A DNA stretch of 64,000 nucleotides from Brooklawnia cerclae (lineage in GTDB: Bacteria > Actinomycetota > Actinomycetes > Propionibacteriales > Propionibacteriaceae). Where the stretch lies: positions 1,426,001-1,490,000 of the forward strand of contig NZ_JAAMOZ010000001.1 in NCBI RefSeq assembly GCF_011758645.1. Direction: 5' to 3'. The notes below the pieces were generated by a model, which saw only the letters and a program-made list of their open reading frames with translations, was not told where the DNA came from and made no database searches. Position 1 is the first letter of the stretch. The number at the start of each line of letters is the position of its first letter. Position numbers and translations under genes: made by a program. Positions 5,135 through 24,726 of this stretch are shown here, piece by piece.

Positions 5135-8100
5135 TGGGTTTCCACAACCCACCGATGCCGTGGTCCGACCTCGAGCGCACGCTGAGCGGCTCCGATCCGG
5201 CTCCGTCAGCCGTGACGGACGCCCCGCTATCCCGCAAGCGAGCCCCCTACACGGCTCCGCCGATCGAACGGCCGCGGGATGCCGTTCCGTACGCCGAGTT
5301 GCACATGCACTCGTCCTTCTCGTTTCTCGACGGTGTGTCCTCGCCGACAGACCTGGTCGTCGAGGCCGAACGGCTCGGGCTGCACGCGTTGGCTCTCACC
5401 GACCACGACGGGCTCTACGGGATCACCAGGTTCGCCGAGGCAGCCGAGCCGACGGGAGTGAAGACGGTCTTCGGCGCCGAACTGTCACTGGGCCTGTCCG
5501 CGCCGCAGAACGGCAGACCCGACCCGGAGGGCACTCATCTGCTGGTCCTGGCCGCCGGGGAGGCGGGTTATCACCGGTTGGCCGGGGCGATCACCGACGC
5601 CCAGCTCACCGGGGCCGAGAAGGGGCGTCCGATCTATGACCTGGCCGGATTGGCGAATGCCGCCGACGGGCACTGGGTGGTGCTGACCGGCTGCCGCAAG
5701 GGGGCGGTGCGCCAGGGGTTGCTCGCCGGTGGCGCCGCGGCGGCCGGACGGGAGCTCGACGCACTGACCGATCTCTTCGGTCGTCAGCGGGTGTACGTGG
5801 AGCTGACCGACCACGGCCATCCGCTGGACTCGACCCACAACGACATGCTGGCCTCGCTCGCCGCCGATCGCGGGCTGCCCACTCTGGCGACGGGGAACGT
5901 GCACTACGCCACTCCCGCCCAGCGTCTGCTCGCCCAGACGGTAGCCGCGATCCGGGCGAACCGGAGCCTGGACGATCTGGACGGTTGGCTGCCGGCCACC
6001 GGGATGGCGTTCCTGCGCTCCGGGGCCGAGATGAGCCGGTTGTTCGCGCGCTATCCCGGAGCCGTGGAACGCACCGTGGGACTCGCCGACGAGCTGGCCT
6101 TCTCGCTGCGCCGGGCCAAGCCTGCCCTGCCCAAGCAGGAGGTGCCTGAGGGGCACACCCCGATGTCCTGGCTCCGGGAGCTGGTCTGGCGGGCGGTGCC
6201 GGGGAAATATCCCCGGCTGGACGACGCCGGCCGGGCACGGATCGAGCGCGAACTCGCGGTGATCGAGGCCAAGGACTTCCCCGGCTACTTCCTGATCGTG
6301 CACGACATCGTCGCCGAGGCCAGGCGTCGCGGCATCCTGTGCCAAGGCCGAGGTTCGGCTGCCAATTCCGCGGTCTGCTACCTGCTGGGCATCACTGCGG
6401 TGGACTCCATCCGCTACGGCCTGCCCTTCGAGCGCTTCTTGTCGGCGCTGCGGGACGAGGAGCCCGACATCGACGTGGACTTCGACTCCGATCGTCGCGA
6501 GGAGGTCATCCAATGGGTGTTCGAGCGCTACGGGCGCGAGCGTGCCGCCCAGGTCTGCAACGTCATCCAGTACCGGCCGAAGAACGCCATCCGGGACGTC
6601 GCCAAAGCACTCGGCTATTCGCCAGGCCAGCAGGACGCCTTCGCCCGCCAGGTGGAGCACTGGTCGCTGCCGAAGCCTCCCGAGGCTGTCGGTTCTTCGG
6701 TCCCTGAGTTTGTTGGTTCTTCGGTCCCTGAGCTTGTCGAAGGGACGGGTTCTGGTGGCGGAGGTGCTCCTTTCGACAGGCTCAAGGAGCGTTCTGGGCG
6801 TGTTCCTTCGGTCCCTGAGCTTGTTGGTTCTTCGGTCCCTGAGCTTGTCGAAGGGACGGGTTCTGGTGGCGGGCGTGCTCCTTTCGACAGGCTCAAGGAG
6901 CGTTCTGGGCGTGCTCTTTCGGTCGGGGTCAAGAAGCCGGGGAAACCGGAGGACGAACAGCCGATCGACGTCCCGCAGGCCGTGCTCGATCTGGCCGCCC
7001 AACTGCTCAAGGCTCCCCGGCACCTGGGCATCCACTCCGGTGGGATGGTGCTCACCGAGCGTCCGGTGGGGCAGGTCGTGCCGATCGAGCACGCCCGGAT
7101 GCCCGGCCGGACGGTGATCCAGTGGGACAAGGACGATGCCGCCTGGATGGGGCTGGTGAAGTTCGACCTGCTCGGTCTGGGCATGTTGGCCGCGCTGCAG
7201 CACTGCTTCACCATCGTCCGGGACGCCACCGGCGAGGTCTGGGATCTGGCGAGCATTCCCAAGGAGGAGCAGGCTGTCTACGACATGCTCTGCCGGGCGG
7301 ACGCCATCGGGGTGTTCCAGGTGGAGTCCCGTGCCCAGCTGGGATTGTTGCCCCGGTTGCGGCCCCGGCGGTTCTACGACCTGGTCATCGAGATCGCCTT
7401 GATCCGGCCCGGCCCCATCCAGGGCGGAGCGGTGCATCCGTTCGTCCGCCGCAAACTCGGCACCGAACCGATCACCTACGCCCATCCCAAGCTGAAGCCT
7501 GTGCTGGAACGCACCCTGGGCGTGCCGATCTTCCAGGAGCAGCTGATGCAGATGGCGATGGCGGTGGGGGAGTGCAGCGGCGAGGACGCCGACCTGCTGC
7601 GCCGGGCGATGGGCTCCAAGCGGGGGATCGAGCGCATCGAGTCCCTGGAGCGCAAACTCTACGAGGGGATGGCTCGCAACGGGCTGACCGGTGATGCCGC
7701 AGACCACCTTTATGCCCAGATCAAGGCGTTCGCGAACTTCGGTTTCGCCGAGTCCCACTCGCTGAGCTTCGCGCTGCTGGTGTACGCCAGTTCGTGGCTC
7801 AAACTGCACTATCCGGCGGCATTCCTGGCCGGACTGCTTCGTGCCCAGCCGATGGGGTTCTACTCGCCTGCGACCCTGACCGCTGACGCCCGGCGGCATG
7901 GTGTCGAGGTGCGCCGGCCCGACCTGCAGCGCTCAGGGGTGGACGCCGGCCTGGAGCCGATCTCGTCGGTCGAGCCCGACGGATCCTGTCCGCCGGTTGA
8001 GCCTGTCGAAACCGGCAAGACCTTGCGGCCCCCCACCGGTCTCGATTCCTGCCTCGACCCCGAACAGCCGCCGATGGACGAGTTCGACCCCGACGCGCCC

Positions 8101-8884: not shown

Positions 8885-11374
8885 GTGACACGTGAGCTTG
8901 TGGATTGGGTCGACGAGCAGATCACAGCGTCCGGCCTCGACGACGAGGTGGGATTGCTGATCCTGGCGGCGATGGAGGGCGACGACCAGCTGGATGTCTT
9001 CCTGAACAGCGGCGCCTCATCGACGCGGGTCCGTGGCTCGGTGCCGGATGCGGGTGTGACCGCGGGCGGGACGTTCCTGAGATCGATCGAGGTAGAGGGC
9101 TTCCGCGGGATCGGGGCGACCACGACCCTGCGTCTCAAACCGAAACCGGGCCTGACGATCGTGGCTGGACGCAACGGCTCGGGCAAGTCCAGTCTTGCCG
9201 AGGCCCTCGAGCTGGTGCTGACCGGAGACACCTACCGGTGGCGTGAGAAGAGCAAGTTCTGGAAGGACAAGTGGCGCAACCTCCACCACTCCCATGCCCG
9301 TATCGCGGTCGATGTCCTCGAGGAGGGAAGCGGCGCGATCACCGTGATGAGCTCGTGGCCGGACGACGCCACCGCCGTCGAGACGCGCATCACGAGGACG
9401 CAGCGAATCGTCGACGGCAAGACCCAGCCTCAGACCGACGGCATCGATGGCCTGGGATGGGCGCGTCCGCTCGAGCAGTTCCGGCCGATGCTGTCGTACG
9501 ACGAGCTGGGTGGGCTGCTCGCCGACGGGCCGAGCACGCTGTACGACGCGCTGGCCAGCATCCTGGGAGTGGATGAACTCACCGCTGCGCTCAAGCGGAT
9601 CCAGACTCGGCTGAAACAGCGGAAGGCGCCGATCAACGACGCGTCGACCCGCCGAAAAGAGCTGCGCGCACAAGCCGCCCACATCGCGGACGAGCGGGCC
9701 GCCAAAGCTGCTGATCTTCTGAAGAGGACGTCACCGGATTCGGCTGCGTTGCGCAGTCTGGCCACCGGAGGCGACGATGACCAGACCGGTCTGATCGCAG
9801 CGCTCAAGGCATTGGCCTCACTCTCGTCCCCGGTGACGGTGGAACAGGTGCTCACAACTGCCGAGAGGCTGCGTACGGGTGTGTCGGCGATCGCTGACAG
9901 CGTCACGGACCTCTCGCGGGTCGACCTGGAGCGGCTCGAGCTTCTCGAATCTGCATTGCGGCTGCACGCAGAACACGGCGACATGAGCTGCCCGGTATGC
10001 CAGAGGGGCACCCTGGACATCGCGTGGGCCGACGCGAGCCGGGTGGCCGCCGGGCGAGCACGACAGCAGTACGCCGCCTACGAAACTGCCAAGAAGGCTC
10101 TTGACGCCGCAGTGGCCGGGTTACGGAACCTTGTGTCGGCTCCGATTCCGGGTGTTCTGCGCAGTGCTCCTCCCGTACCCGAACTGGACGAGGCAGTGGC
10201 CTCGGCCCGACAGGCGTGGACCGAGTTCCTCGATGCCCCCGATGGGGGGAGCAACACGACACGTCTGGCGCAGGCCGATCACATCGAGCGCACCGTCGGA
10301 CCACTGCTCGTGGCTCTGGAGCACCTTCGCGAACGCGCCGCCGAAGAGGTCGGGCGGCGCAACGACGTCTGGCAGCCCTTGGCGTCACAGATCGCCGCGT
10401 GGTGCGACGCTTGTGATGCGGCTGCGGCCGACGTCCCCGTCGTCGACCGTTTGGCCAAGGCCGAAGAATGGCTCAAGGAAAACGACCGGGCGCTCAAGAA
10501 CGAGCGCCTGAGACCGATCACCGAGGGCGCGCGTCAGGCATGGAGCAGGCTCCGCCAGGAGAGCAACATCGAGCTCGGTGATCTGAGGCTCGAGGGGTCG
10601 GGTACGCGTCGACGCGTCCAGATCGATGCCTCCATCGACGGTGCGGACGCCGGCAACTTCGCCGTGCTCAGCCAGGGCGAGTTGCACGCGCTGGCTCTCG
10701 CGCTGTTCATCCCGCGTGCCACGATGGCTGAGTCGCCGTTCCGTTTCGTCGTCCTGGACGACCCCGTGCAGGCGATGGACCCGGCCAAGGTGGACGGCCT
10801 CGTGGACCTGCTCGGCGAACTCGCCCGGGAGCGGCAGGTGATCGTGCTCTCTCACGACGACCGTTTGCCGGCTGCCGTGCGCAGGTCGAGCGTGGACGCG
10901 ACCGTGCTCGAAGTGTGCCGTGGCAAGAACTCGAACGTGACCATCCGCACCCTCAGCGATCCGGCCGAGCGCTACATCGCCGACGCGTTCGGCATCGTCA
11001 AGGAGTGGGAGGACGAGCGGCTCGAGGAACTCGCCATCCGCAGGACCTTGCCCGGTCTGCTGCGGTTCGCCGTCGAGTCCGCAGCGAAGGACGCGTTCTA
11101 CGAACGCACGATCAAGACAGGTTCCGCGCTCGTAGATGTCGAACGGATCTGGGGAGATGCACACACCACCCGGTCGAAGGTCGCACTCGCGGTGGTGGGC
11201 GAGACAAGCGATCCCCGGGAGCTCGACGCCTGGCTCGGCGGCCGTCCGTACCGGAGGCCTGCGCTGAACGTCGCAGGCCCGGCGATGCACAACGGGCTCA
11301 GGGACGCCGTCCGACCACGCGACGCCGCCACGGACGTGAAGAAGCTCGTCGCAGACATCAGGAGCGCGGTGTGA
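8885..11374 (+). CDS. SMC/Rad50-like ATPase with CxxC hook, candidate defence protein
   Basis: 829 residues from GTG 8885; a GTG or ATG further upstream would overlap dnaE2. The ATPase is split as in Rad50/SMC. Walker A G95-RNGSGKSS is near the N-terminus. A helical middle carries C369-PV-C372, a possible zinc hook. The C-terminal half has the ABC signature L595-SQGE, Walker B VVLDDP (D625/D626) and the H-loop VLSHDD. About 130 further residues follow, including AMHNGLR. The gene overlaps the next small gene by 4 bases. It could act in DNA end processing or in anti-phage defence; no nuclease domain is recognisable. Confidence 0.8.
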   Translation: MTRELVDWVDEQITASGLDDEVGLLILAAMEGDDQLDVFLNSGASSTRVRGSVPDAGVTAGGTFLRSIEVEGFRGIGATTTLRLKPKPGLTIVAGRNGSGKSSLAEALELVLTGDTYRWREKSKFWKDKWRNLHHSHARIAVDVLEEGSGAITVMSSWPDDATAVETRITRTQRIVDGKTQPQTDGIDGLGWARPLEQFRPMLSYDELGGLLADGPSTLYDALASILGVDELTAALKRIQTRLKQRKAPINDASTRRKELRAQAAHIADERAAKAADLLKRTSPDSAALRSLATGGDDDQTGLIAALKALASLSSPVTVEQVLTTAERLRTGVSAIADSVTDLSRVDLERLELLESALRLHAEHGDMSCPVCQRGTLDIAWADASRVAAGRARQQYAAYETAKKALDAAVAGLRNLVSAPIPGVLRSAPPVPELDEAVASARQAWTEFLDAPDGGSNTTRLAQADHIERTVGPLLVALEHLRERAAEEVGRRNDVWQPLASQIAAWCDACDAAAADVPVVDRLAKAEEWLKENDRALKNERLRPITEGARQAWSRLRQESNIELGDLRLEGSGTRRRVQIDASIDGADAGNFAVLSQGELHALALALFIPRATMAESPFRFVVLDDPVQAMDPAKVDGLVDLLGELARERQVIVLSHDDRLPAAVRRSSVDATVLEVCRGKNSNVTIRTLSDPAERYIADAFGIVKEWEDERLEELAIRRTLPGLLRFAVESAAKDAFYERTIKTGSALVDVERIWGDAHTTRSKVALAVVGETSDPRELDAWLGGRPYRRPALNVAGPAMHNGLRDAVRPRDAATDVKKLVADIRSAV

Positions 11375-15409: not shown

Positions 15410-16363
15410 TCACCCGCACACCGAGGTGCACGAGTCACAGCTCGCGTTGCAGTCGTTCACGGCGAAGTCGTGGAGCACCATGAACTCACTGCCCGGGATC
15501 GGCACCTCCAGTGAGACCTTGCCGTTGTCGAAGGTCACCGTGTCATCGGCGAAGGCGATGGTGATGGGCAGCCTGACAGGCGCGTCGTGGGTCAGCGCGA
15601 GCCGCGTCCGTGAGGAGAGGCGCTTGTCGCCCAGCTGAGGGCTGTGGACGATGGCATCGCCCGACGTCGACACCTGGCGGAGGTCCCCCGCACGGTCGAA
15701 CCGCACAGAGTTCTCGTCCGCGTTCATGCCGAGCGCATCGACGTCGTAGGCGACCACGGGGCCTATCGGGGTGTCGAGGGTGATCGGTTCGACGGGCTCC
15801 AGCGACTCGAGCTCCCCGCTGGGGTAGATGCGGAACCCGACGCGGGTCTCCATGGGCCCGATCGGTGTCTGCAGAGTCATGGTGTCGCCGGGCCAGAGCA
15901 GCACGCTCTTGATCTGACCGGTTTCGTAGAAACGGATCCCGGACACCGCCGCGGTCACGGTGCCGAACGCGAACTCGAACGAGAGCGGTTTGGCAAGGGC
16001 CCTCTCGTCGTCCTCGCTCCAGCTGTAGCTGATCTGCCCGTCGAGGGGGAAGACGCTGTCGACCTCACCGTTGCGGAAGAAGGTGACGCGCTCGGCGGGT
16101 AGCGGACCGATCGGCGTGAGGATCGTGGTCTGCTCGTCGAGGTAGACGCTGCGCAGCGCGCCGTCGGGGAAGAACGTCACCGACGACCGCGACTTGCTGC
16201 GGATGTCCGGTGGCGAGAAGCGCGGCACGAGGTCGCCGCATCGGGTGTGAATGACATTGCGCTGGTTCAGGCTGCACTCACGCAACGGGCCGTCGTCGCC
16301 GTACCGCGTGAACGAGACGATGCCTCTCAGGCTTGCGGACAGGATATGAGTCAGCGTCGGCAT
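15410..16363 (-). CDS. beta-rich repeat protein with C-terminal four-cysteine tail
   Basis: 317 residues from ATG 16363, after a ggag ribosome binding site; an upstream in-frame start is less likely. It consists of repeated units of about 40 residues containing TPIGP (TILTPIGPLPAERV, TLQTPIGPMETRV, TLDTPIGPVVAYD) preceded by G-x-L/I-x-S-V-x-L strands. It ends with C-x3-C-x2-C-x3-C-G (CNASCDSCTSVCG). There is no signal peptide or membrane helix. The repeats recall MORN/YwqK-like beta hairpins. Function is unknown; the tail could bind a metal or Fe-S cluster or be modified after translation. Confidence 0.75.
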   Translation of the reverse strand: MPTLTHILSASLRGIVSFTRYGDDGPLRECSLNQRNVIHTRCGDLVPRFSPPDIRSKSRSSVTFFPDGALRSVYLDEQTTILTPIGPLPAERVTFFRNGEVDSVFPLDGQISYSWSEDDERALAKPLSFEFAFGTVTAAVSGIRFYETGQIKSVLLWPGDTMTLQTPIGPMETRVGFRIYPSGELESLEPVEPITLDTPIGPVVAYDVDALGMNADENSVRFDRAGDLRQVSTSGDAIVHSPQLGDKRLSSRTRLALTHDAPVRLPITIAFADDTVTFDNGKVSLEVPIPGSEFMVLHDFAVNDCNASCDSCTSVCG

Positions 16364-16454
16364 GGTGGCTCCTTCGGTCGACTGTGAACACTCTCGGGTC
16401 GCCGGGAGACAACCCTCACGTCGCTCGGGCGGGAGCACTCCGGCCAGGGCGCAA

Positions 16455-18025: not shown

Positions 18026-18724
18026 TCAGGAGATGACCCCGTTGCGGAACGCCCATGTGACGAGTTCAGCACGAGAGGAGAGCCCGAGCTTTGCCATGAT
18101 CCTCTTGAGGTGGCCTTTCACGCTGGCAGGTTCGATGTTCAGCCGTCGTGCGACGGCTTTGGTGGAGGAGGGGCCATCGGCGAGGGCGCGCATGATCTCG
18201 ACTTCGCGCGCAGTGAGCAGTCTGACATCCGGACTGATCGTAGAAGCCGGTCTTGTCGTGTGCGAGACGGCAGCGAGGACGCGCGGGGTCACTTGTGGTG
18301 AGATCATTCCCTCCCCGCGGGCTGCTGCGCGCACTGCGGTCGCATAGGTGTCGGGTGCACTGATCTTGAGCAGGAACCCGACTGCGCCCGCCTTGATCGC
18401 ACCGAATACATATTCGTCGATATCGAATGCAGTGATCGCCAGCACCGGGATGTTCCACGGAGGTGCGGTGAGTATCTGTGTTGCGGCGATCCCGTCGCCG
18501 TCGGGCATCCGCAGGTCCATCAGGATCACATCCGGTGCCTGACCATGGACCGCATCTATCGCCTCGGGTCCGGAAGCAGCCTCAGCGACGACCTCGATGT
18601 CCGCGTAGCGCTCAAGCATGTGCCGCAGACTTATGCGTACGGACGCCTGGTCGTCGACGATCAACACCCGAGTCATCTCAACCGGTCTGCCGCGGCGGTT
18701 CACATCCGTAGCCGAGTTCGTCAT
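18026..18724 (-). CDS. NarL/LuxR-type response regulator without a neighbouring kinase
   Basis: 232 residues from ATG 18724; ATG 18676 (MTRVLIVDDQ) is an equally good start for the receiver. It has a receiver domain with the acidic pair VDDQ, phospho-acceptor in LMDLRMPDGDG and the conserved Lys in GFLLK. A C-terminal LuxR helix-turn-helix follows (LTAREVEIMRALADG, then STKAVARRLNIEPASVKGHLKRIM). It lies 11 bases after the permease gene and is the last gene of the secreted-protein/ABC operon. No histidine kinase is nearby. Confidence 0.9.
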   Translation of the reverse strand: MTNSATDVNRRGRPVEMTRVLIVDDQASVRISLRHMLERYADIEVVAEAASGPEAIDAVHGQAPDVILMDLRMPDGDGIAATQILTAPPWNIPVLAITAFDIDEYVFGAIKAGAVGFLLKISAPDTYATAVRAAARGEGMISPQVTPRVLAAVSHTTRPASTISPDVRLLTAREVEIMRALADGPSSTKAVARRLNIEPASVKGHLKRIMAKLGLSSRAELVTWAFRNGVIS

Positions 18725-18735
18725 GAGTGGGATGG

Positions 18736-19899
18736 CTACGGGACGCGTAGCTCGGTGAGCGGGTCGCGGCGCGCGGCGATCACGGCCGGTACCAGCGCGG
18801 CGATCGCTCCGGTAATGATCGCGAGAAGGACGAGCGCGAGGGTGAAAGTCGGCCGCGGAACTGGGAAGTGCATGACGATCATGACGGCGTGTGCCGCGAA
18901 CGCGCCGACCGTGGCACCCCTCGTGACTACGGTGGTGGCTTGGGCGACAACGAGAGCGGCGATGAGTCGTTGAGATGCTCCGAGTGCGCGACGGCGTCCA
19001 TAGTCCTTGCGACGGAGCGCGACGGAGGCGTAGAGGGTGGCGGCGACGAGCACCGCGCCAGCCGTGATCGCTCCCGCGAGCATGCTGCGTGAGTAGACCG
19101 AGAGTTGGTCGTCGATGAGCCCGCGCAGGCGCGCGAACGCTTCGGATGTCTGCGCGGACACCGCTTCGCTGTCCGTCTCGCCCAGGACGGAGGTAACGGC
19201 GCGGGCGAGCGGCGCGACCAGGTTCGGGGCTTCGGCGACCACGACGATCAATGTGACAAGGTCGGCTCGTTTTGTCGGGTCGGCCGTGATGGTGCCGGTC
19301 GCGTCGATGATGCCGATGGCCGACGGCTGCCGGGGAACAAGGACAACGGGATCGAGGAACTGGAGGTAGTCGGGTAGCTCCGCCGTGCCTGTGACGAGGA
19401 CGTCGGCGTCATCGGCATCGCGTACCGGCCCGGCTCCGTCGACGAGCCCGAGTTGCTGCAGAGCCTTGGGGGTGGCCCAGGCGGTGGTCGCTCCGGACAA
19501 TTCGGCGGACGCCGAGGGCAGGCCGATGGCCGCAGTGTCGCGGGTGGTGATGGTGCGGGCCGCGACACGGGTGCCGTCTGCGACCACCGCGGAGTGAACG
19601 TCGGAGGCCTGTCCGAACGCTCCGGCCCAGGCGACTCCATCCAGCGCGTCGATGCGGGAGAGCACCGCAGTGGTGACCTGCGCGTTCGGTTGGAGGCGGA
19701 GGATGATGGAGCGGGTGCCGGCGTCGTCGATAGAGGCGACGATGTCGGTCTGCGCGGCCACAGTGCGTCCCACCGTGAGTAGGACGACCATGACCATGGC
19801 GGCGGACACCAGCGAGGTGAACACGGACAGCGCTGGTTGGGAGCGCGCGACAGCGATCGCCTCACGGTAGACGGCGACGGCGTATGCGAGCGGGGTCAT
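18736..19899 (-). CDS. FtsX/MacB-type ABC permease
   Basis: 387 residues from ATG 19899, overlapping the ATPase stop (ATGA). One N-terminal membrane helix (about 28-50) is followed by a roughly 200-residue extracytoplasmic domain. Then come three membrane helices with the cytoplasmic ALRRKDYGRRRALGASQRLI motif between the first two, which is the FtsX topology. Such permeases usually move no small solute. They work mechanically with an adaptor on lipoproteins, peptides or the cell envelope. The C-terminus ends ARRDPLTELRVP. Confidence 0.9.
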   Translation of the reverse strand: MTPLAYAVAVYREAIAVARSQPALSVFTSLVSAAMVMVVLLTVGRTVAAQTDIVASIDDAGTRSIILRLQPNAQVTTAVLSRIDALDGVAWAGAFGQASDVHSAVVADGTRVAARTITTRDTAAIGLPSASAELSGATTAWATPKALQQLGLVDGAGPVRDADDADVLVTGTAELPDYLQFLDPVVLVPRQPSAIGIIDATGTITADPTKRADLVTLIVVVAEAPNLVAPLARAVTSVLGETDSEAVSAQTSEAFARLRGLIDDQLSVYSRSMLAGAITAGAVLVAATLYASVALRRKDYGRRRALGASQRLIAALVVAQATTVVTRGATVGAFAAHAVMIVMHFPVPRPTFTLALVLLAIITGAIAALVPAVIAARRDPLTELRVP

Positions 19900-20543
19900 A
19901 GGGCGATCACCCGGGTACATCGTGAGATCAAGTAGGGGTCATGGGTTGCCACGACCACAGTGCCGCCTTCATGCGCAACGTGGTGGAGCACCTCGATCAC
20001 AATTTCCGCGGTGGCGTGATCGAGGTTTCCGGTCGGTTCATCGGCAAGCACGATCTGGGGTGAGGCGAGCAGCGCCCGGCACAGCGCCACTCGCTGCGCC
20101 TGACCTCCAGAGATCTGTCCCGGCCGATGCTCGGCTCGCAGGTCGACACCGAAGCGCGCCATCAGCTCCCGTGCTCGAACGCAGGCGGGGGCGCGGGGTG
20201 TTCGACGATAGAGCGCGGTCTCGGTGATGTTGTCGAGCACGGTCCGGGTCGCGTCCAAGCTCGCGTCCTGGAACACGAAGCCGAACTCGGACGCGCGCAG
20301 GCGAGCCCGGTCCGTGTCGGGCAGGTGTGCGACGGGGATGCCGTCGACGAGAACCTCGCCGCTGCGGGGGACGAGCATCAGCCCGAGTAGATACATCAGG
20401 GTTGACTTGCCCGCACCAGAGGGCCCGGTCACCGCCACGATCTCCCCAGCTTCGAACAAGGCCGACCATCCCTCCAGGACGACGACGTCCGGCGAATAGG
20501 CGAAACCGAGGCCACGAGCCTCGAGACGCGTGACCACGGTCAT
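19896..20543 (-). CDS. LolD/MacB-type ABC ATPase
   Basis: 215 residues from ATG 20543, overlapping the adaptor stop by 4 bases. Walker A is GPSGAGKST, Q-loop VFQD, signature ISGGQAQRVALCRALL, Walker B IVLADEPTGNLD and H-loop ATHD. Its short length and the TGNLD motif put it in the MacB/LolD/FtsE group, which pairs with FtsX-type permeases, as found in the adjacent gene. Confidence 0.94.
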   Translation of the reverse strand: MTVVTRLEARGLGFAYSPDVVVLEGWSALFEAGEIVAVTGPSGAGKSTLMYLLGLMLVPRSGEVLVDGIPVAHLPDTDRARLRASEFGFVFQDASLDATRTVLDNITETALYRRTPRAPACVRARELMARFGVDLRAEHRPGQISGGQAQRVALCRALLASPQIVLADEPTGNLDHATAEIVIEVLHHVAHEGGTVVVATHDPYLISRCTRVIAL

Positions 20544-21643
20544 CCCTCCCGTTCCGTGAAGGGCACGCGCACGCGCATCCCCTCGGGCACGCCCTCGACG
20601 ACGCTCATCCCCTGGGCCGAAGCCACGACCGTCACCGAGTGCTTGGCGCCGTCGTCGCCGACGACGACCGCTACGCCGCTTGCGTCGGTAGACACAGCCG
20701 CCGCGGGCACCGTCAACCCCGAGGTGTGCGGCACCAACGTGATCTGTGAGGAGAACAGCGTCGTCCCACTCGTGCCCACAGCCTCTGCACACTCGTCCCC
20801 GCACACCGGGGCCGAGTCACCCGTGCCGAGCGTGGCGACCGCCGCACCGTTCTCGTCGCGCTCGACCCGTTCGATGACCGCGCCCCACGGCTCGGACGGC
20901 CCTTGCACGACGACTGCGGCATCGGAGGGCACAAGTTCTGCTTGACGGTCGTCGAGTGCGATGGTGAAACGCGGGGCCCCCAGGCCGGTGATCGCCCGCT
21001 CCCCGCCGGAGAGGATAGCCCCGGTGTAGACGGTGTCGGGATCGATGCGGATGCGTATGGGCAACTCGGGCACGAACACAATGTCGCCGAGCGCCACGGC
21101 ACCACTGGGTTCGATCCCCTCACGGCTCTGCCACGAGCGCACCGCACCCACCGTGCCAACGTCAAACACCCCGTCCACATCCCCGGGCTCAAAGCCGACA
21201 GTGATGAGCATCTGTTGCAGTTGTGCCACATCGGGGCCGCTGGCGCCCAGCTGAAGATCGCGGTGCATCGGCGTGGTGCCCTGCGCGACATGTACTGGGC
21301 GGAGGTCGACGGAATACAGCTTCTGTCCCTGTGCCACTACAGCGCCGGACCTTACGTCGACGGAAGTGACGGTGCCGATCGCGCGATTGGCGACGCTGCT
21401 GGTTGCCTCCCACTCAGCGGAGGCGTTGAGCGTCAAGGATCGCGAGACCTCTCCTTGAGCCACCACTGCGGTGGTGTACGGCAGCTCTACGAGGGAGGCC
21501 TCTTCGGAGTGAAGCAACTCCGTCACCGCCCATCCGGCCACCCCGCCTACGACCAGCAGCAACACTGCGACGAGTAGAAACTCCGGCCGAGCACTCTTCC
21601 GTTCGGTCGGAGCGGGCAAGCTATGGGTAGCGGGCTCAGCCAC
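20540..21643 (-). CDS. membrane-fusion (HlyD-like) adaptor with peptidoglycan-binding domain
   Basis: 367 residues from GTG 21643. There is a single signal-anchor helix (about 24-45), then a barrel-sandwich entry strand (TTAVVAQGEVSRSLTL). A PG_binding_1 domain is inserted in the hairpin region (LQLGASGPDVAQLQQMLITVGF to WQSREGI), followed by the returning barrel and beta domain. Gram-positive adaptors of this type link ABC permeases to the wall. It overlaps the lipoprotein gene upstream by 8 bases. Confidence 0.88.
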   Translation of the reverse strand: MAEPATHSLPAPTERKSARPEFLLVAVLLLVVGGVAGWAVTELLHSEEASLVELPYTTAVVAQGEVSRSLTLNASAEWEATSSVANRAIGTVTSVDVRSGAVVAQGQKLYSVDLRPVHVAQGTTPMHRDLQLGASGPDVAQLQQMLITVGFEPGDVDGVFDVGTVGAVRSWQSREGIEPSGAVALGDIVFVPELPIRIRIDPDTVYTGAILSGGERAITGLGAPRFTIALDDRQAELVPSDAAVVVQGPSEPWGAVIERVERDENGAAVATLGTGDSAPVCGDECAEAVGTSGTTLFSSQITLVPHTSGLTVPAAAVSTDASGVAVVVGDDGAKHSVTVVASAQGMSVVEGVPEGMRVRVPFTEREG

Positions 21644-22151
21644 GGCGCGGGATGAAGTCGGCCTGCGGGCAGGCGGCTAGCGGGTCCACGCCTGGCGAGG
21701 GCGTGGACCCGACGATCACTCCCCACGGGGTCCACTGGTGCCCGCCGATCGTGTCCTCGATGAACACCTCCCGCGACGGTGCCTCCTGCACGTCGTAGCC
21801 GAGCTCCTGCAGGCATTCCGCTTCAGTGAGCACCTTCTGGTACAGCTCGTCCCACGATTCCTGCGACCACTCGTTCACCGGAACCGCCGCATCTCGAATG
21901 GGCGCGTTGCACGCCGACCAATCTGCATTGAACTGACCTGTCTGAGAGGCATCGCCCTCGGACAGGAGACCACCGTTCTCCGACGGCGTCACGTCCCACC
22001 CCTTGTTCACCATGCAGTCGTAGACGTACCGATCCAATTGCTCTCCAGTCATGGTCGAGAAGTCTGAATTCTCGTACCCGGGGGTTGCCGAGGCCGCGCA
22101 CCCTGTGAACAGGATCACCAAACTCAGCATGCTCGCAAAGATCAGACGCAT
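21636..22151 (-). CDS. secreted lipoprotein of unknown function
   Basis: 171 residues from ATG 22151; the frame is open further upstream, but this start gives a proper signal peptide. The lipobox is LFTG-C21, so the protein is lipid-anchored. The mature part is acidic, with EQLDRYVYDCMVNKGWDV near the start and further Cys pairs. No recognised family. Its place between the small secreted protein and the adaptor suggests it senses, guards or hands over the secreted product. Confidence 0.8.
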   Translation of the reverse strand: MRLIFASMLSLVILFTGCAASATPGYENSDFSTMTGEQLDRYVYDCMVNKGWDVTPSENGGLLSEGDASQTGQFNADWSACNAPIRDAAVPVNEWSQESWDELYQKVLTEAECLQELGYDVQEAPSREVFIEDTIGGHQWTPWGVIVGSTPSPGVDPLAACPQADFIPRRG

Positions 22152-22168
22152 CTCGCTGAGATCTCTCT

Positions 22169-22501
22169 CTAGAACCCGCAGCCGTATTGAGCGAACTCCA
22201 CACTGTCGGACGTCGACACGGTCGCCGCCGTCGAATTGAGATAGGTTGACCGGAAAGTCGTCGTCCGCACATAGGATACCCAGCGCTGAGAGTTCCGTTG
22301 GGAACTGGAACCGGAATAGATGACGTGCAGTTGATCTCCGGATGAACCCAACATGGTCGCCACGTAGCTCGCACCACAAGCGCGGGGCTCATTCCAGACC
22401 TTCTCCCCGTACGCGTGGGCGGCGGTGGCGCTCCCGAACATCAGCGCGACAGTGGCGCCGGTCCCGATAAGTGCGTTTCCAAGCATTCTTTTTCTGTTCA
22501 T
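22169..22501 (-). CDS. small secreted protein, candidate exported peptide of the ABC operon
   Basis: 110 residues from ATG 22501, with AAAGGCG ahead of the start. A signal peptide is clear (basic MNRKR, hydrophobic core TGATVALMFGSATA, cleavage after AHA). The mature chain is about 78 residues, Ser/Thr/Tyr-rich, with two Cys (RACGAS and the C-terminal YGCGF) likely to form one disulfide. It heads a six-gene operon with lipoprotein, adaptor, ABC and regulator, like small bacteriocin loci. It lacks the usual lactococcin-972 pattern. The local base composition is less GC-rich than its neighbours. Confidence 0.7.
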   Translation of the reverse strand: MNRKRMLGNALIGTGATVALMFGSATAAHAYGEKVWNEPRACGASYVATMLGSSGDQLHVIYSGSSSQRNSQRWVSYVRTTTFRSTYLNSTAATVSTSDSVEFAQYGCGF

Positions 22502-22787
22502 GTCTTGTTCATCGCCTTTCTGTTCGTCGTCGCTGTCGGTAGCGAATTGTGAAGCCGACGACTCATTCGTATCGTGCCGATAACACACGTCGATAGCCCC
22601 AAAAGGAGTAATCCCCAATGATGCGGTCAGCCGGCGCGGATAGGGCGGGATGAGTTGTGGGGAAGGGCATCGCGAGGCCGAGGACAACTCGTTGGCACAT
22701 GCTGGCGACCGCGGCGCGGGCGGCGGTACCGGCGAGCCGCTCGAGGACCGAACCCGAGCCGACGCCCAACCGGCGGGAGGGACCGAT

Positions 22788-24273: not shown

Positions 24274-24726
24274 ATGAAGAGGCCACACGCGCGTGTACTC
24301 CTCCGGGTCGCCATCGTCGGTGTTGTCGTCGTCCTGGCGGTGTGGCTGCTGATGACGTGGACCGGACTGGCCTTCTGGAACACGAAGAAGGTGCCCTACA
24401 CCACCGCATCGGTGACCCTCACCAGAGGAACCTGGCTGCTCGTCGACTTCGGGGTTATCAACTCGTCCGTCGGGGACGACTGGGTGCTCGTCTCCGAGCC
24501 CGACCCTGACGTGCTGGGGGAGCCGAAGACCGAAGGCGAGTATCTCGGCGAGAAGGGAAGCACCGGAGGCCGGAACACGCGCCTGTACAGGTTCGCCACG
24601 GTCGGGCCGGGCACGGCGGTCCTCGACTTCGAATACCGTTTCCGCGGCAATGTGCCCGATGACCAGGCGGAGCGGAAGACCGCGCACATCGTCGTGGATG
24701 TGGAGCCTCGCTGGCCGTTCCGGTGA
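24274..24726 (+). CDS. membrane-anchored protein, possibly chagasin-like
   Basis: 150 residues. One N-terminal anchor helix (about 10-30) is followed by an exported beta-rich domain. The text G-x-W-LLVDFGVINSSVGDDW and GGRNTRLYRFATVGPGTAVLDFEYRFRG resembles the I42 (chagasin) protease-inhibitor fold, where a G-rich loop precedes F-x-F and L-x-F-x-Y strands. The resemblance is weak. A GACAAT -10 box ends 6 bases before the ATG, so it is likely leaderless. Confidence 0.55.
   Translation: MKRPHARVLLRVAIVGVVVVLAVWLLMTWTGLAFWNTKKVPYTTASVTLTRGTWLLVDFGVINSSVGDDWVLVSEPDPDVLGEPKTEGEYLGEKGSTGGRNTRLYRFATVGPGTAVLDFEYRFRGNVPDDQAERKTAHIVVDVEPRWPFR

Follow-up and report, generated by a model that had tools for sequence, protein, structure and literature searches.

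In Bacillus, the disulfide-bearing toxin SDP is countered by YknWXYZ, a MacAB-like pump with a membrane fusion protein (MFP), which protects the cell (PMC4887032). NisI and NisFEG, a lipoprotein and an ABC transporter, both protect the nisin producer (PMC8538875), and the propionibacterial bacteriocin propionicin T1 (thoenicin 447) is described as Sec-processed, with an ABC gene behind its own for which a role in resistance has been suggested (PMC5756557). Here we examine a six-gene operon of Brooklawnia cerclae that may work like these three systems, to judge by analogy, and for which we claim membership in none of them. Its genes, for a secreted protein (PEP), a lipoprotein (LIPO), a putative adaptor (ADAP), an ABC ATPase (ATP), an FtsX-type permease (FTSX) and a response regulator (RR), all lie on the minus strand and run from position 22501 to position 18026 of the 64,000-nucleotide stretch analysed (contig NZ_JAAMOZ010000001.1, positions 1,426,001 to 1,490,000; hereafter the window). 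Sequence comparisons make it probable, in our judgement, that the operon encodes a hypervariable, Sec-exported bacteriocin, a cognate immunity lipoprotein and a MacAB/Ykn-like pump for self-protection.

With SDP and YknWXYZ the locus would share a small secreted toxin with one intramolecular disulfide and a MacAB-like pump with an MFP adaptor; compared by description, SDP is a peptide of 42 residues, the fourth Ykn component is the Yip1-family protein YknW where a lipoprotein stands here, and the adaptor here carries a PG_binding_1 domain, unlike YknWXYZ as described (PMC4887032). With propionicin T1 the likeness would lie in a bacteriocin processed by Sec and followed by an ABC transporter gene, whereas the mature form of propionicin T1 has 65 residues, it is accompanied by one ABC protein, and its description mentions no lipoprotein in the sections used for this comparison (PMC5756557). 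Polymorphic toxins and their polyimmunity loci offer a further likeness, in that the toxin part is exchanged with its immunity gene and immunity genes occur in tandem; these toxins are described as mostly large and multidomain, whereas here one small domain stands directly behind the signal peptide (PMC3482391). The LanI/LanFEG systems share the pairing of a protective lipoprotein with an ABC transporter (PMC8538875). They differ in that the transporter here is of the FtsX/MacB type with an adaptor and that LIPO falls outside the Pfam and NCBIfam families. No lanthionine modification enzyme was present among the eight genes scanned at the locus, the scan being limited to these eight.

Lactococcin 972 is exported by the Sec pathway and has companion ABC genes. 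Its family, PF09683, comprises unmodified beta-sandwich bacteriocins said to occur widely among Firmicutes and Actinobacteria (PMC9964109, PMC8538875), lactococcin 972 itself being described as free of cysteines (PMC8538875). Membership of PEP in this family was rejected by sequence: none of 33 PEP proteins matched PF09683 up to E 1, and hhalign of PEP against eight proteins found with PF09683 returned a probability of 0.1. The same model finds 17 places in 14 of 197 genomes of the family to which B. cerclae belongs, and none in the B. cerclae genome. ATP scores 160.1 bits against TIGR03608, the model of the lactococcin 972 partner ATPase, where the cut-off is 254.85, and the solved structure of lactococcin 972 is not among the fold matches listed for the seven-strand model of PEP, which excludes nothing. 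Two lactococcin 972-type matches in other genomes (G025:C14:47603 and G026:C46:122292; L151 and L154) lie about 14 kb away from loci of the present module on their contigs, which would suit a clustering of bacteriocin genes there. Comparison with known anti-phage systems gave only matches of ATPase and of response-regulator or helix-turn-helix type. No earlier description of this gene set was seen among the open-licence papers listed, though one may be in print elsewhere.

Linkage of peptide, lipoprotein and pump genes in relatives

The linkage of peptide, lipoprotein and pump genes is more than chance and recurs in relatives. An earlier, sequence-only reading of the window would have been refuted had the first two genes proved unlinked from the ABC module elsewhere; the opposite was found, with ADAP near LIPO in 63 of 77 loci and a PEP-type open reading frame (ORF) before LIPO in 32 of 86 cases. 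A single LIPO query gave 17 matches in 15 of 198 family genomes, and 15 of the 16 matches outside the window have ADAP, ATP and FTSX homologues within the same 8-13 kb stretch, the sixteenth (L035) lying on a 4.4-kb contig. LIPO profiles (E <= 1e-8) matched in 43 of 391 genomes of an order sample and in 14 of 394 of a class sample, the two samples overlapping. The resulting set comprises 78 loci including the window, 77 of which hold the 86 LIPO matches (E < 1e-7); within 6 kb of LIPO, ATP was found in 60 of the 77 and FTSX in 51, beside the 63 with ADAP. In the reverse direction (197 family genomes), LIPO lies within 6 kb, by coordinates compared by eye, of all but one of the 39 strongest ADAP matches (E <= 1e-69), the one without it being G156:C305, which begins 1.3 kb from the end of a contig; the ADAP profile was derived from LIPO-found loci, so that this search is not fully independent.

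PEP is an orphan at first sight, single-sequence searches giving it no convincing relative. Neither Pfam nor NCBIfam gives it a match up to E 1. As a single query at E <= 0.01 it matched in 10 of 198 family genomes. One match is the window, and the other nine are weak (E 9e-5 or worse): eight fall in long other frames or in frames containing stops, and the ninth, an ORF of some 100 residues (L002), is not surrounded by a module. A scan of genome contigs with PEP returned no match. PEP-type ORFs, small and with a signal peptide, were defined by rule: the mature part has 50-140 residues and two to five cysteines, of which the first lies no more than about 25 residues from the start and the last no more than 16 from the end, and the ORF is located between -520 and +230 relative to the start of the LIPO ORF. 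Such ORFs accompany 32 of 86 LIPO matches as against 6 of 738 control ORFs (the others with 170 residues or more in these loci; Fisher p 2e-28), and occur in 7 of 982 other 750-bp windows. The 32 include a differently built, lipoprotein-like candidate at L031 that was omitted from the PEP alignments; the identical peptides of L084 and L086 were entered once, and the mature starts of a few rows were set by hand. The 38 distinct PEP proteins from ADAP-positive loci have mature parts of 72-91 residues (median 80), with exactly two cysteines in 33. Mean pairwise identity in this set is 25% between mature PEP proteins and 29% between LIPO proteins (global alignments), and 38% between ADAP proteins (local alignments). 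In L035, L098, L101, L103 and L107 the PEP stop overlaps the start of the LIPO ORF by a few bases.

The B. cerclae genome has three ADAP loci, each with LIPO and PEP, and a PEP profile containing its three peptides found nothing else there below E 0.1. The two further copies of the module are L041 (C1:269500-281900) and L099 (C1:392700-405900). At L041 LIPO comes first and its peptide second, the lipoprotein-peptide pair stands on the strand opposite the pump, and there are several extra lipoprotein copies, partly broken or partial.

A scan of named genomes led by ADAP alone yielded 65 loci, 22 of them with long matches (L155-L176). LIPO is present in 20 of these 22, not always on the ADAP strand and about 6 kb off in L160, and PEP adjoins LIPO on the LIPO strand in 12. 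L156 and L171, which hold the same genes as L032 and L043, are apparent repeats of them, and L167 duplicates L166; with these three removed, the counts are 17 of 19 for LIPO and 11 of 19 for PEP. L165 and L169 are 99% identical. Named carriers of PEP are Microbacterium kunmingense (with two peptides), Oerskovia enterophila, Cellulomonas septica, C. algicola, Xylanimicrobium pachnodae, Schaalia canis and Schaalia sp. Marseille-Q2122, and five carriers are metagenome-assembled, two of them titled Acidimicrobiia or Acidimicrobiaceae; the module is also present in Propioniciclava soli (L156) and in G126. The two M. kunmingense peptides (L155, 5615-6390, minus strand) differ from each other; these secreted two-cysteine ORFs stand one behind the other ahead of a single lipoprotein gene, on the strand opposite the pump. 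Any LIPO match occurs in 9 of the other 43 loci (L177-L219), mostly matches to the peptidoglycan-binding domain alone, and none of these is PEP-adjacent. On a plasmid of Clavibacter sp. A6099 (L107), ADAP, ATP and FTSX are followed by a peptide and LIPO; the ADAP, peptide and LIPO ORFs (5698-6948 and 8967-9832) are missing from the PLSDB gene table, which is known to be incomplete.

The distribution of the module is patchy: no ADAP match at E <= 1e-25 was obtained in any of the seven congeners searched, a copy lies on the Clavibacter plasmid, and the GC content dips at the 5' genes of the B. cerclae operon (0.57 at 22000-22600, against 0.677 for the whole window, standard deviation 0.029 in 500-bp windows).

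What recurs is PEP, LIPO, ADAP, ATP and FTSX. An RR-like regulator stands directly behind FTSX at 1 of the 51 LIPO matches with a same-strand FTSX, a count that covers only regulators similar to RR and on which RR was rejected as a core member; it is a local addition outside the recurring core. The view of all six genes as one unit fits the spacing in the window and not the relatives, where five of them recur. RR had also been called an orphan, and indeed all eight HisKA_3 kinases of the genome lie outside the window, the nearest being at C1:1304519, about 120 kb before its start; the description stands for HisKA_3, the only kinase type searched.

Divergence of the peptide and its neighbouring lipoproteins

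Divergence within the module was followed in four close pairs of loci, drawn from one trio and one pair of genomes. At the nucleotide level, L098 and L103 (genomes G026 and G039) agree at 87.0% over the 300 bp ahead of PEP and at 90.5% over the signal peptide; identity falls to 48.5% over mature PEP, and is 64.5% in the adjacent LIPO, 77.7% in the second LIPO and 90.3% in ADAP. At the protein level the same pair is 89.3% identical in the signal peptide, 31.6% in the mature part, 55.6% in LIPO, 69.7% in the second LIPO and 91.2% in ADAP. For L098 and L101 the values are 60.7% (signal peptide), 34.7% (mature part), 56.8% (LIPO) and 87.0% (ADAP), and for L101 and L103 they are 71.4%, 73.4%, 78.4% and 88.4%, respectively. 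The proteins of Schaalia canis and Schaalia sp. share 93.1% of the signal peptide, 43.0% of the mature part, 91.9% of ADAP, 87.6% of ATP and 89.6% of FTSX. The mature part of PEP changes fast, behind a signal peptide whose sequence has been kept in two of the four pairs; divergence is greater in the neighbouring LIPO than in the pump, and where the peptides differ, so do the LIPO genes beside them. By analogy, this would be the behaviour of a toxin gene and its immunity gene.

The two Schaalia loci (L173 and L175) hold five and six same-strand LIPO genes around one PEP each, and two LIPO genes are found in each of L087, L098 and L103. Two of the best Schaalia LIPO counterparts, both away from the peptide, are 93.0 and 92.3% alike and the other three 59.5, 64.5 and 71.1%, while the LIPO genes lying just behind PEP are 32% alike between the two loci. 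Strings of extra immunity genes have been described as remnants of replaced toxins (PMC3482391). The two Schaalia arrays would be candidate polyimmunity loci, LIPO being the putative immunity protein.

The operon in the window and its predicted products

Domain matches and coordinates bear out the layout proposed from the sequence alone, a secreted peptide, a lipoprotein, an adaptor with a peptidoglycan-binding domain, an ATPase, an FtsX permease and a regulator (Table 1). The spacing is as tight as had been stated: gaps of 17 bp between PEP and LIPO (the largest) and 11 bp between FTSX and RR, and overlaps of 8 bp between LIPO and ADAP and of 4 bp each between ADAP and ATP and between ATP and FTSX.

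Table 1. Genes of the B. cerclae operon, with positions counted from the first nucleotide of the window
Gene	Position	Strand	Product and features
PEP	22169..22501	-	Secreted two-cysteine protein, 110 aa; signal peptide about 30 aa, mature part 80 aa; no Pfam/NCBIfam match
LIPO	21636..22151	-	Lipoprotein, 171 aa, lipobox Cys18; proposed cognate immunity protein
ADAP	20540..21643	-	GTG start; PG_binding_1 and weak MFP-family matches; putative adaptor
ATP	19896..20543	-	MacB/LolD-type ABC ATPase; NCBIfam matches
FTSX	18736..19899	-	FtsX/MacB-type permease; PF02687
RR	18026..18724	-	NarL/LuxR-type response regulator; PF00072 and GerE

The signal peptide of PEP was delimited by eye and by a simple rule. 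The mature protein had been put at 78 residues with two cysteines; the cysteines are there, one near each end (Cys12 and Cys78), the length is slightly greater, and the statement that it belongs to no known family agrees with the family searches. AlphaFold2 modelling of the mature protein with 31 relatives gave a best of five models with a mean pLDDT of 93.3 and pTM 0.82, the others ranging from 93.0 to 80.7 in pLDDT. The model has seven strands and no helix, and a Cys12-Cys78 disulfide is plausible because in it Cys12 follows the first strand and Cys78 closes the last. A sequence search of solved structures found no match to PEP up to E 10 and Foldseek none with E <= 0.001, and a VIA fold search reached a best Z of 6.4 with a mixture of jelly-roll, carbohydrate-binding and other beta folds; as far as the model goes, these matches are at the level of common beta-sandwich and jelly-roll arrangements.

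In LIPO, the lipobox Cys18 and Cys46, Cys81, Cys113 and Cys161 are all invariant in a 39-row alignment. Pfam and NCBIfam hold no family for it, giving just two matches at E 0.14 and 0.17. Its model (pLDDT 86.6) is mainly helical; a sequence search of solved structures gave 32 weak matches (best E 0.03), Foldseek none with E <= 0.001 and VIA a best Z of 4.7, and no solved relative was found in these searches.

ADAP has one PG_binding_1 domain (E 7e-12), a single N-terminal hydrophobic stretch seen by eye, and a C281-x3-C285 pair invariant in 13 alignment rows; its adaptor-family matches are weak (TIGR01730 at E 1e-7 and Biotin_lipoyl_2 at E 0.0016, both under cut-off). ATP scores 170 bits with LolD, 169 with MacB, 167 with FtsE and 160 with TIGR03608, all below the curated cut-offs, and its best matches, LolD and MacB at E of about 1e-49, place it in the MacB/LolD class of ATPases though under the equivalog cut-offs. 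FTSX matches PF02687 with 33.8 bits against a cut-off of 25.5 (E 4e-8), as expected of an FtsX-type permease, and a large stretch, judged by eye, separates its first hydrophobic segment from the later ones.

Two further ORFs in the window lie outside the operon. One (15410-16438, minus strand) encodes 342 residues with similar units repeated, by eye, and a short cysteine-rich end; the other (24274-24726, plus strand) encodes a small protein with an N-terminal hydrophobic stretch, which may resemble the chagasin-type (I42) protease inhibitors.

Proposed function, alternatives and significance

In the working model we favour, PEP would be made as a preprotein, exported by Sec, as its signal peptide indicates, and folded outside into a small beta protein with its N- and C-terminal cysteines bonded, where it may attack close competitors at the cell surface. 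LIPO, lipid-anchored on the outer face of the membrane, would bind its cognate PEP or the target site and protect the maker, much as NisI does against nisin. ADAP, ATP and FTSX would form a MacAB/YknXYZ-type pump, held at the wall by the peptidoglycan-binding domain of ADAP, that clears PEP from membrane and wall; self-protection would be its natural role because PEP has a signal peptide of its own and should need no export pump in a one-membrane cell. This pump would be common to successive PEP types, the mature part of PEP being swapped jointly with the neighbouring LIPO behind a conserved signal peptide and older LIPO genes being left behind as arrays. In the window, RR probably tunes expression.

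Several observations weigh against this model. The apparent co-divergence of PEP and LIPO rests on four close pairs from two genome groups; over 703 pairs, nearly all too distant, the Spearman coefficient of PEP with LIPO identity is 0.10, as against 0.11 for ADAP with PEP. The Schaalia pair is only 63.6% alike in the 300 bp before PEP, and three of its five LIPO counterparts are 60-71% alike whether they adjoin PEP or not. LIPO shows no known immunity fold in the family and structure searches. Fourteen loci have LIPO without ADAP nearby, and contig ends do not explain them, because in eight, L135 of the congener G053 among them, the DNA extends for 3.9 kb or more to either side. Conversely, no PEP was detected in 32 of the 63 ADAP-positive loci. 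Such PEP-free loci may be immunity-only, may encode peptides of another build, or may reflect a second role of the pump. In Streptomyces, nine contigs (L177-L185) encode both ADAP and ATP. ADAP is preceded in seven of them by a LIPO match, a weak one at E 7e-9 to 3e-5; none of the nine has a PEP adjoining LIPO, and a Streptomyces plasmid locus is alike. To judge by these Streptomyces loci, the lipoprotein and pump may have a different main task.

The strongest alternative builds on the same loci. The sequence-only reading had left the choice between bacteriocin production with immunity and an envelope-stress module; comparison supports the former, and the latter survives as a rival, in which lipoprotein and pump would detoxify foreign peptide antibiotics or answer envelope stress and PEP would be a decoy, a sensor ligand or a wall protein acting as input to the system rather than a toxin. 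The PEP-free loci, the Streptomyces loci, one of which has a kinase/regulator pair beside it, and the peptidoglycan-binding domain of the adaptor would all suit it. We nevertheless regard it as unlikely: a decoy or sensor ligand need not vary its mature part behind a conserved signal peptide, the arrays of LIPO with a single PEP would go unexplained, and the PEP-free loci also fit immunity retained after loss of the toxin.

A little less likely again is that PEP is an extracellular effector or signal, such as a pheromone, a protease inhibitor or an adhesin-like domain, that would leave the cell by the MacAB-like pump, LIPO acting as its loading chaperone. MacAB-TolC has been implicated in enterotoxin secretion, as noted in PMC4887032, and the weak fold matches of PEP include carbohydrate-binding beta sandwiches. 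With its own signal peptide, however, PEP should not need the pump for release from a one-membrane cell, one would expect a pheromone to vary little within a group, and the fold matches, with Z no higher than 6.4, are to common arrangements only. Finally, a neighbourhood artefact, in which the short PEP ORFs bear signal peptides and cysteines by chance and the lipoprotein-ABC operon next to them is real, is very improbable, for while the PEP proteins share little beyond two cysteines and the detector was home-made, with rules fixed after the first examples had been seen, the excess over control ORFs, the recurrence in 12 of 22 loci of the ADAP-led named set, which played no part in the rules, the confident model from the PEP alignment and the PEP-LIPO overlaps at five loci all argue otherwise.

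Returning to the bacteriocin reading, we see a slightly better than even case for a broader proposal, namely that the module represents an unnamed class of small bacteriocins across Actinomycetota, at least in Actinomycetes and Acidimicrobiia: disulfide-closed beta proteins that follow the logic of polymorphic toxins in miniature, with mature domain and LIPO swapped behind a conserved signal peptide, one wall-anchored MacAB-like pump serving all variants, and discarded LIPO genes persisting as polyimmunity arrays. If so, these genomes would hold a hidden store of antibacterial proteins, here 38 distinct and mostly dissimilar sequences, which escape sequence searches because every one of them resembles an orphan, and the conserved LIPO and ADAP would provide a handle for finding them. 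The module would also be a clear test case for the joint exchange of toxin and immunity genes, and it would give a role to the peptidoglycan-binding adaptor/FtsX pumps of Gram-positive actinobacteria.

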